The position numbers and the translations under genes were made by a program. A DNA stretch of 64,000 bases from Paracandidimonas soli. GTDB lineage: Bacteria; Pseudomonadota; Gammaproteobacteria; Burkholderiales; Burkholderiaceae_B. How positions within the stretch are numbered: the first letter of the stretch is position 1; each line of letters opens with the position of its first letter. The notes under the pieces are model-generated. The model ran no database searches and was not told the origin of the DNA. It worked only from the letters and a program-made list of their open reading frames with translations. Location of the stretch: contig NZ_SMBX01000004.1 in assembly GCF_004342005.1 (NCBI RefSeq), positions 186,001 through 250,000 on the forward strand, in the 5' to 3' direction. This document shows positions 21,098 to 54,166 of this stretch, one piece after another.

Positions 21098-21138
21098 GAA
21101 CGCGGTTCGCCAGAATATGGCGTGGCATCTGGTGTTTC

Positions 21139-21177
21139 AATGCAACGGGGGCGCATATGATGCGCCCCCGTTGCATT
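21139..21177. terminator. 18-bp perfect stem between convergent genes
   Basis: Arms 21139-21156 and 21160-21177 are exact reverse complements, with loop ATG; the core is CGGGGGCGCAT. It lies between the oxidoreductase gene and the end of rne, which converge. There is no long T run on either side, so if it terminates it does so by stem strength or by blocking exonucleases. Confidence 0.6.
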
Positions 21178-21191
21178 GCACAACTTGCTGA

Positions 21192-51764: not shown

Positions 51765-51890
51765 TTAGCCCTGGCGGGCCTTGAACCTTGGATTCGATTT
51801 GCAGATCACATAGATTCTGCCGCGTCGCCTGACGACCCGGCAGTCCCGGTGGCGGTTCTTGGCATCCTTGAGCGAGGCCAGGACTTTCAT
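51765..51890 (-). CDS. ykgO: 50S ribosomal protein L36, zinc-independent paralogue (YkgO type)
   Basis: Protein of 41 aa: it starts [20 protein letters not shown] and ends [16 protein letters not shown], matching E. coli YkgO closely. The four-ligand zinc ribbon of ordinary L36 (RpmJ) is broken, leaving only two Cys, so this form can replace the zinc-binding protein during zinc shortage. AAGGAG lies eight bases before the ATG at 51890. The gene reads away from a perfect palindrome shared with the cobW gene. Confidence 0.92.
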
Positions 51891-52032
51891 GAGGGTTTCT
51901 CCTTGTGCTGGTGATGGCGCCCGCGTCATTCAGCCGCGACGGGCGCAGGTACAGGACGGGCGCGTCGTCTCGTGTCCAGGGCAGCATGCGATGCGAAGGC
52001 GCAGTATCATGCGAGTGTCTCGTTCTTCATTA

Positions 52033-52053
52033 AAATGATATGTTATATCATTT
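52033..52053. promoter_or_regulatory. Zur-box-like palindrome between L36 paralogue and cobW
   Basis: Perfect arms AAATGATAT (52033-52041) and ATATCATTT (52045-52053) with spacer GTT, lying 22 bases before the cobW start and 143 bases before the ykgO-type start. It resembles the A+T-rich palindromes bound by the zinc repressor Zur in gammaproteobacteria. Both flanking genes are typical Zur targets, which supports the call. Confidence 0.75.
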
Positions 52054-52074
52054 CTATAGCGGCTGCCTTCCCTC

Positions 52075-53202
52075 ATGACGAAAATTCCCGTGACGCTGCT
52101 GACCGGTTTTCTCGGTAGCGGCAAGACGACCGTGCTCAATACGCTGGTGAAACAGCCCGCCATGTCGGGCGCGCTCGTCATCATCAATGAGTTCGGCGAT
52201 GTCGGGCTGGACCATCTGCTGGTGGCGCACAGCAGGATCGAGGGCGTCGTCGAACTGAGCAGCGGCTGCCTGTGCTGCACGATACGCGGAGACCTGGCGC
52301 GCACGCTGAAGGACGCCGTGTGGCGCTTTTCCCGCAATGGACGGCGGCAGTTCGACCGGGTCATGATCGAAAGCACGGGGCTGGCCGATCCCGCGCCCAT
52401 TCTGCAGACCTTGCTCGATGACCCAGCTCTGACGAAGCATTATTTCCTGGACGGCATCGTGACGACGGTGGACCTGGCCAATGGCTGGCAGACGCTGGAC
52501 AGGCACCCGGAAGCGCTCAGGCAGTCCGCGGTCGCGGACGTCCTGCTGCTGACCAAGGCGGACATGGCGGGCGAGGAGAGCAGGCAGGCGCTGGCTGAGC
52601 GGCTGCGCAGGATCAATCCCGGCGCCCGGCAGATCGAAGCAAACCCGGGAAGTGTGCGGGCGCGGGATCTGATCGACCTGGGTGTCGCGCAGGCGAATGC
52701 CCGCGGTATCGACATACAGGCGTGGCTGCACACGCGGGCGTTTGCCGGAGCGGGCCACGCGCACGAACATGCGCATGCGCACGGCTGCGCCCACGACGAA
52801 GATATGCAGGCCTGCTGCGGTTCCGGGGAGCCGGGGCATGAGCACCGGGAGCATGGCCACAGCCATGCGAGCAATCACGACGATGGCATCCGTTCCTGCA
52901 GCTTCGTGCTGGACCAGCCGCTGGAGCCGGAAGCGTTCAGGGAGTGGCGCGAGATCCTCATGGCGTTCCTGGGAGACCGCATGCTGCGCCTCAAGGGCAT
53001 CCTGAACATCCGCGGGGAGTCTCGCCCGCTGGTCATCCATGGCGTTCAGCACGTGTTCCATGAGCCAGTTCATCTCGATGCATGGCCGGGGGAGGATCGC
53101 AGTTCCCGCCTGGTGTTCATTGTCCAGGATCTGGATCGCAGCGTGCTGGAGCAGACCCTGGGAATCCTGAAACGCCGCAACGCAAGCGGCGCCAAAACAT
53201 AG
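52075..53202 (+). CDS. CobW/COG0523 family GTPase, probable zinc metallochaperone (ZigA/YeiR-like)
   Basis: G3E GTPase of 375 aa. Walker A is GFLGSGKT (11-18), the metal-binding CLCC is at C65-C68 within SSGCLCCTIR, and the guanine motif is LTKAD. A His-rich stretch (about 225-272, many HxH repeats with CC and HDD) would bind zinc. The C-terminal CobW_C domain includes RLKGILNIRGE. Such proteins deliver zinc to client enzymes during starvation. The Zur-like palindrome upstream supports zinc rather than cobalt. Thirteen bases separate it from the NadQ-like gene. Confidence 0.88.
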   Translation: MTKIPVTLLTGFLGSGKTTVLNTLVKQPAMSGALVIINEFGDVGLDHLLVAHSRIEGVVELSSGCLCCTIRGDLARTLKDAVWRFSRNGRRQFDRVMIESTGLADPAPILQTLLDDPALTKHYFLDGIVTTVDLANGWQTLDRHPEALRQSAVADVLLLTKADMAGEESRQALAERLRRINPGARQIEANPGSVRARDLIDLGVAQANARGIDIQAWLHTRAFAGAGHAHEHAHAHGCAHDEDMQACCGSGEPGHEHREHGHSHASNHDDGIRSCSFVLDQPLEPEAFREWREILMAFLGDRMLRLKGILNIRGESRPLVIHGVQHVFHEPVHLDAWPGEDRSSRLVFIVQDLDRSVLEQTLGILKRRNASGAKT

Positions 53203-53215
53203 GCCTTCCACTGTC

Positions 53216-54166
53216 ATGTCGTTCATGCCGCAATCGGATTTCCGGGAATCGCCGGTCAATGCCGTCGCCACAGAGCTGGTGGCGGTCCTGGTGTCCGTCA
53301 CGGACGGGCAGCCGCGCGTACTGACGCGGGAAAACGCCGAGGCTCTGCCCGCCGGGCCTTTCGAGTCGGGGCACAGATCGCTGCAGGCGGGCCTGCGCGC
53401 CTGGGTCGAAGCGCAGACGCATCATCCCCTGGGCTATGTGGAGCAGCTCTATACGTTCGCCGACGGCGATCGGGCCAACCAGCAGGGACAGCATGTCATT
53501 TCGGTCAGCTATCTCGGATTGACGCGAGAGCTGCAAAGTCCGGAGATCGCCACGGTTGGCTGGCAGGACTGGTATCGCTATTTCCCATGGGAGGACTGGC
53601 GCGCAGGGACGCCGGAGATCGTCGATGCATTGATCCGGCCCGAGCTGTTGCGCTGGTGCGCCAAGGGCGATGCCGCGCTGCGGCGCCGGCGGCGCCAGCG
53701 CGTCGACTATACCTTCGGCACGGATGAGGGCGGCTGGAACGAGGATATGGTCCTGCAGCGCTACGAGCTGCTGTTCGAGGCCGGTCTTGCGCCAGAGGCC
53801 TTGCGCCGGATGGGAAAAGAGACGGAAGCAGTGCTGCCCGGCGCCGCCATGCGGCACGATCATCGCCGTATCCTGGCGACCGCCATGGCCAGGCTGCGCG
53901 CAAAGATACGCTACCGGCCCGTCGTATTTGAGCTGATGCCGCCCGCCTTCACTCTGCTGCAATTGCAGCAGGCCTTCGAGGCGGTTGCCGGCCGCCGGCT
54001 GCACAAGCAGAATTTCCGCCGCTTCATCGAGCAGCAGGAACTGGTGGAGGAAACCGGCGAGATGACGCATGGCGCAGCCGGCCGTCCCGCCAAGCTGTTC
54101 CAGTTCCGCGGCGACGTCATGCTGGAGCGCGCCATCGCGGGGAGCAAGCTGCCCCTGGCCCGATAG
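53216..54166 (+). CDS. NrtR/NadQ-like NAD metabolism regulator (degenerate Nudix plus winged helix)
   Basis: Protein of 316 aa. The N-terminal half has a Nudix-like fold (TELVAVLVSVTDGQPRVLT, HHPLGYVEQLYTFADGDR) but the catalytic Nudix box is lost (AGLRAWVEAQTHH instead of the REUxEE core), pointing to ligand sensing. The second half has HDHRRILATAMARLRAKIRYRP and a winged helix (FTLLQLQQAFEAVAGRRLHKQNFRRF, GRPAKLF). This layout matches NrtR or NadQ regulators of NAD synthesis. No nad gene is near. It probably shares the cobW transcript. Start at 53216 or 53225. Confidence 0.78.
   Translation: MSFMPQSDFRESPVNAVATELVAVLVSVTDGQPRVLTRENAEALPAGPFESGHRSLQAGLRAWVEAQTHHPLGYVEQLYTFADGDRANQQGQHVISVSYLGLTRELQSPEIATVGWQDWYRYFPWEDWRAGTPEIVDALIRPELLRWCAKGDAALRRRRRQRVDYTFGTDEGGWNEDMVLQRYELLFEAGLAPEALRRMGKETEAVLPGAAMRHDHRRILATAMARLRAKIRYRPVVFELMPPAFTLLQLQQAFEAVAGRRLHKQNFRRFIEQQELVEETGEMTHGAAGRPAKLFQFRGDVMLERAIAGSKLPLAR

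Follow-up and report, generated by a model that had tools for sequence, protein, structure and literature searches.

Repression by Zur of YkgO-type L36 and of COG0523 genes, on which the preliminary description of this locus drew, is well known in other bacteria, according to the papers cited here (PMC6103462, PMC2770081, PMC11340326). In E. coli, the Zur regulon is given as znuABC, zinT, the L31p and L36p spares, and pliG (PMC4219657, PMC6103462), and the element of one Zur dimer as RNNNYxxxRNNNY (PMC4219657). Zur sites are reported to precede many COG0523 genes (PMC2770081). In N. gonorrhoeae, the spare L31 is reported to have slowed translation, and growth in low zinc was better in cells that lacked both spares (PMC13343924); hence, a growth benefit of the swap discussed below is not to be assumed.

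The window is the whole stretch of DNA analyzed here, 64,000 nucleotides of the Paracandidimonas soli genome (C4:186001-250000; 3.89 Mb in 23 contigs). In this window, a gene coding for a type B L36 (rpmJ2) and a gene coding for a COG0523 GTPase (cobW1) diverge from a short palindrome (Table 1), and with good confidence the locus can be read, from its sequence, as a putative Zur-repressed zinc-starvation unit. The computed support consists of the parts themselves, the operator match, a Zur regulon around the operator, and linkage in relatives. The Zur reading of the preliminary description thus gains from the motif scan, the zur gene, the motif before the relatives' rpmJ2, and the linkage between cobW1 and rpmJ2.

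Table 1. Features of the rpmJ2-cobW1 locus and the three best genomic places of the Zur motif
Feature	Position in window	Strand	Basis or remark
rpmJ2, 41-aa ribosomal protein L36 of type B (zinc-site-less)	51765-51890	minus	profile matches and alignment to paralogue
Stretch from palindrome to rpmJ2 start, 142 nt	51891-52032	minus	AAGGAG site and 26-codon Cys-rich upstream ORF
Zur-type candidate operator	52031-52055	strandless	motif match; perfect palindrome 52033-52053 inside
CobW1, COG0523 (CobW/YjiA-like) GTPase, 375 aa	52075-53202	plus	PF02492, PF07683, motifs
CLCC metal motif of CobW1, residues 65-68	52267-52278	plus	
His-rich loop of CobW1, residues 223-275	52741-52899	plus	12 His
NrtR-type regulator gene	53216-54166	plus	start 13 nt after cobW1
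Zur-motif place 1, promoter of znuD-like receptor			0 mismatches
Zur-motif place 2, window site	52033-52053		1 mismatch
Zur-motif place 3, promoter of decayed third COG0523 gene			1 mismatch; 2 with the stricter TGW form (PMC4219657)

The rpmJ2 product matches Pfam Ribosomal_L36 and scores 92.4 bits against the NCBIfam model "type B 50S ribosomal protein L36" (NF002021), above its cut-off of 70, and the other L36 of the genome scores 40.3 bits. An in-frame upstream ATG would give a 54-aa alternative; the AAGGAG ribosome site favors the 41-aa start. The alignment of the two proteins opposes HRDC..C..F in the rpmJ2 product to CRNC..C..H in the other L36, at four positions that we take to be the zinc ligands. 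The first Cys is changed to His14 and the last His to Phe36, and Cys17 and Cys30 are kept (two of the four ligand positions), so the four-ligand site is broken and not fully erased. The 41-residue variant had been described as lacking this site, which holds for the site as a four-ligand unit (His14, Phe36) and not for the two cysteines that remain. The L36 with the zinc ligands (CRNC..C..H) is encoded elsewhere, at C1:189596, in the order secY-infA-rpmJ-rpsM-rpsK-rpsD (neighbors named by eye), and rpmJ2 is therefore the spare. The sole L31 found in the genome is already of type B, with 116 bits against an NCBIfam cut-off of 86; hence, of L31 and L36, L36 alone is left for exchange. There is no Zur motif within 1.5 kb of the type B L31 gene, the best match there having 6 mismatches.

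The 26-codon ORF of the rpmJ2 leader, MILRLRIACCPGHETTRPSCTCARRG, shows CC-x2-H and CxC patterns, and its stop codon is immediately adjacent to an ATG in the L36 reading frame, which could be chance. RNA structure was considered for the same leader and rejected, the fold being at the level of shuffled sequences (z -0.36; 66 of 200 shuffles as good).

CobW1 has the hallmarks of COG0523: a Walker A motif (GFLGSGKT, at residue 11), a CxCC motif (CLCC, at residue 65), and the CobW nucleotide-binding (PF02492) and C-terminal (PF07683) domains; TKAD is found at residue 160. The GTPase with CLCC and a long His-rich loop that had been recognized from the letters alone is therefore there as claimed. 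Its scores lie below the NCBIfam equivalog cut-offs for ZigA (120.9 bits, cut-off 600), PRK11537 (YjiA-type; 190.1, cut-off 361), and CobW (134.3, cut-off 332.1), so CobW1 is assigned to neither ZigA, the YjiA-type GTPases, nor true CobW. YjiA is the only solved structure related to it by sequence (1nij, 4ixm, 4ixn), and its closest named relatives include Alcaligenaceae and Paraburkholderia. The NrtR-type gene that follows may be co-transcribed with cobW1 and is probably outside the zinc unit. Its membership was considered and thought unlikely: among five relatives viewed (L221, L222, L223, L226, L229), the next gene after NrtR is nadC in three (one called by NCBIfam, two by eye), with none listed in the other two. 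This order suggests that an NAD-type regulator may here have come under a zinc promoter.

The palindrome between the two genes reads AAATGATAT-GTT-ATATCATTT (in full, AAATGATATGTTATATCATTT) and is exactly the perfect 9+9 inverted repeat with spacer GTT that had been reported. Its middle, GATAT-GTT-ATATC, fits RNNNYxxxRNNNY exactly; around this core, GATATGTTATATC, there are two registers of lower symmetry, offset by 5 bp in each direction, and the same 13 core bases are present upstream of the znuD-like gene. Symmetry alone is weak evidence, and the rarity of the site rests on its sequence. Besides this site, 14 perfect palindromes (arms of at least 9, spacer 0-7) occur in the window, so symmetry as such is not rare, and base composition predicts about 0.4 palindromes with a 3-nt spacer per 64 kb. 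The pattern of this one at up to 3 mismatches is absent from 100 shuffles of the window and has one further place in the whole genome, the reversed control giving none. A chance palindrome is thus rejected by the shuffles and the genome motif scan, not by symmetry. The longest palindrome found in the window is another one, a perfect 19-3-19 repeat at 21138-21178, perhaps a terminator.

A published Zur motif, TRWNAYRWTATAWYRTNWCA (PMC6103462), was derived from E. coli and scanned here in a Burkholderiales genome, where at up to 1 mismatch it has three distinct places, against 0.08 expected under a dinucleotide model (Table 1). The preliminary description had proposed scanning the genome for similar sites before znu genes or zinc-free paralogs, and the two best sister sites are in the promoters of a znuD-like receptor (711 bits against NCBIfam ZnuD, missing the cut-off of 950) and of a COG0523 remnant. 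At exactly 2 mismatches the scan adds five places (7 rows, where about 2 are expected at up to 2 mismatches), with no zinc gene recognized by eye within 1.5 kb on either side. At 3 mismatches the scan gives 63 rows versus 45 in the reversed control, mostly chance; a site between zur and an ABC importer has 3 mismatches, is weak, and rests on its position. A looser pattern has 46 places versus 13 in the control, and its only perfect matches are the window site and the znuD-like site. The decayed COG0523 gene (C8, approximately 152300-152887; L154) keeps its N-terminal part with CICC and has lost its middle, its C-terminal remnant lies in another frame (recognized by eye), and the Zur-type operator in front of it remains close to perfect.

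The genome has three Fur-family genes: Fur (C6), a low scorer (C13), and a Zur candidate (C1:379067-379576). The last scores 115.7 bits against NCBIfam Zur, which misses the cut-off of 167 but leads every other family by 65 bits. Aligned to E. coli Zur (4mtd), the candidate retains each of the eight zinc ligands as well as Asp49 and Arg65, with Lys in place of Arg52; three of the eight are cysteines of site A other than Cys103. The remaining five are His77, Cys88, His96, Glu111, and Cys103 (PMC4219657). The genome thus contains the zur gene that the proposed control presupposes, with its eight ligands intact. The candidate adjoins a second COG0523 gene, a one-Cys DksA, and a divergent zinc-type ABC importer, the binding protein of which is nearest AztC (291 bits, missing the cut-off of 350). 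The one-Cys DksA gene (C1:377245-377691; L009) lies beside the second COG0523 gene and zur, and of 15 loci of relatives (L183-L197), all place DksA, and 13 place Zur, next to the second COG0523 gene. The third Fur-family protein (C13:363-782; L010), 139 aa long, low-scoring, and encoded near a contig end, seems by eye to lack the usual metal ligands.

Counting the window's genome, 12 of the 101 genomes of the family (13 copies) and 21 of 349 genomes sampled from the order have type B L36. The motif (at most 2 mismatches) lies no more than 250 nt upstream of rpmJ2 in nine of the 13 family copies: the window's, L093, L095, L096, L098, L101, L102, L103, and L157. The four copies without it (L094, L097, L099, L100) lie inside same-strand clusters, and three of them, viewed with wider flanks (L158, L156, L155; all but that of G023), show an exact motif immediately ahead of a Zur-like gene. 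Seven rpmJ2 loci of other families were scanned over 1.5 kb on either side, and none has the motif with 2 mismatches or fewer; in the wider cluster of G230, a Zur-like gene is preceded by an exact motif. The Zur-site scoring left out L142-L150 and L137, the last being represented by its wider cluster, L166.

The CobW1 ortholog is the recognized gene before rpmJ2 in G049 and G060 (at approximately 175 and 270 nt, with room for a short ORF) and in G058 and G023, two genomes of one genus, it is found approximately 1.8 kb ahead of rpmJ2. The six top CobW1 scores belong to G000 (the window's genome), G049, G023, G058, G060, and G061, five of which have type B L36. When G071 is counted (a split match, as similar as G061), the proportion is five of seven versus 12 of 101 overall, G061 and G071 having CobW1 without type B L36. 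In G267, a genome of another family, a different COG0523 gene follows rpmJ2.

Other observations concern the leaders and the second copy of G060. An element resembling TCCTGTTGATTCT is conserved in L093, L096, L097, L099, and L101, with variants in L094, L100, and L095; it mostly lies 35-40 nt from the rpmJ2 start, immediately upstream of the ribosome site, and in five loci can be read as a mini-ORF, ATG...TGT-TGA. The sequence TCCTGTTGATTC occurs three times in the 12 rpmJ2-bearing genomes, every time in an rpmJ2 leader. The element is absent from the window's genome, and no Rfam family matches the relatives' leaders; on nine rpmJ2 loci Rfam gives 2 tRNAs only, both outside leaders. A search of the 101 genomes at fixed spacing, which missed the rpmJ2 leaders, gave 2 exact matches, a base rate only. 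The second rpmJ2 of G060 (G060:C32; L157:5160-6101) is divergent from a zinc-binding-protein-like gene across one common motif, the same architecture as in the window with a different partner.

Under Zur control, Zn-Zur on the candidate operator would block both promoters when zinc is present. When zinc falls, Zur would leave the operator, rpmJ2 and cobW1 would come up, the rpmJ2 product could take the place of the zinc-containing L36 as new ribosomes are made, and CobW1 would handle or deliver the scarce zinc. Of these steps, we infer Zur binding, repression in both directions, and the L36 exchange; that zinc from L36 passes to CobW1 is only a guess. An alternative, unlikely on present evidence, is that the site controls cobW1 only and that rpmJ2 has a separate promoter nearer its own start. 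The palindrome ends 21 bases from the cobW1 ATG and lies 142 nt from that of rpmJ2, and a consensus scan finds no sigma-70-like promoter on either side, so that overlap of palindrome and promoter is only putative. However, in the eight copies of relatives with the motif, the distance from its end to the rpmJ2 start is 18 to 209 nt, a range that includes the spacing of approximately 140 nt seen here, and the second rpmJ2 of G060 faces its partner across one common motif.

A stronger version of joint control by Zur holds that the coupling of the two genes through the symmetric operator serves a purpose, namely that zinc released from L36 is taken by CobW1 and delivered to clients. This we regard as improbable. 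If it were true, CobW1 would act as a zinc chaperone linked to the ribosome, with the repeated linkage of cobW1 and rpmJ2 in relatives as its signature; in any case, the recurring linkage provides a concrete pair for asking whether COG0523 proteins take zinc released by ribosomes.

That the site belongs to Fur, and hence to iron, is very improbable. Its central 15 bases agree with a 7-1-7 Fur consensus at 10 of 14 positions, and the Fur of this genome scores above its NCBIfam cut-off. Yet the window site has 1 mismatch to the Zur motif versus 4 to Fur, the sites of the decayed cobW and of zur and the importer are 6 mismatches from Fur and the znuD-like site 4, and the three best Zur-motif places all precede genes of zinc-linked families; a Fur site is rejected on these mismatch counts. 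Least probable of all is a chance meeting of a spare L36 and a COG0523 gene without joint regulation, since, although the head-to-head order is found in the window's genome alone among the 13 family copies and no L36 gene appears near cobW in the best 80 of 563 confirmed stretches from other taxa (narrow text pattern; 43-55% identity), cobW1 precedes rpmJ2 on the same strand in G049 and G060, another COG0523 gene follows rpmJ2 in G267, and a candidate operator is common to both genes.

Read as a Zur-repressed unit, the locus is a good example of a zinc-saving response that is already known, ordinary biology that is cleanly predicted. A divergent rpmJ-cobW pair is not described in the titles and abstract beginnings searched, a weak negative. 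With the E. coli Zur regulon the locus shares the operator grammar RNNNYxxxRNNNY, with two dimers, and a spare L36, there under Zur and here putatively so; in E. coli the L31 and L36 spares go together, whereas here a spare L36 stands alone, paired with a COG0523 gene. The rpmE2-rpmJ2 operon of N. gonorrhoeae likewise provides a betaproteobacterial spare L36 that is derepressed through Zur in low zinc, but it is an operon with a spare L31, and a COG0523 partner goes unmentioned in the part of the report cited (PMC13343924). In Cupriavidus metallidurans, another betaproteobacterium, the Zur regulon (zur, zupT, cobW1, cobW2, cobW3) contains Zur-controlled COG0523 GTPases (PMC11340326); that a gene is labeled cobW1 in both cases is coincidental and implies no orthology. 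There, in contrast, the COG0523 genes are arranged otherwise, and the entry for ribosomal proteins in the Zur regulon is "No" in a review table (PMC6103462). The Zur-linked COG0523 subgroup (ZigA, ZagA/YciC) and YjiA resemble CobW1 in Walker A, CxCC, and the His-rich loop, although CobW1 stays below each cut-off given above for ZigA, the YjiA-type, and true CobW. Compared with these systems, the locus would extend the zinc-sparing response to a lineage in which, of the two ribosomal proteins checked (L31 and L36), only L36 can be swapped, and would pair that swap with a zinc-type GTPase at one candidate operator.
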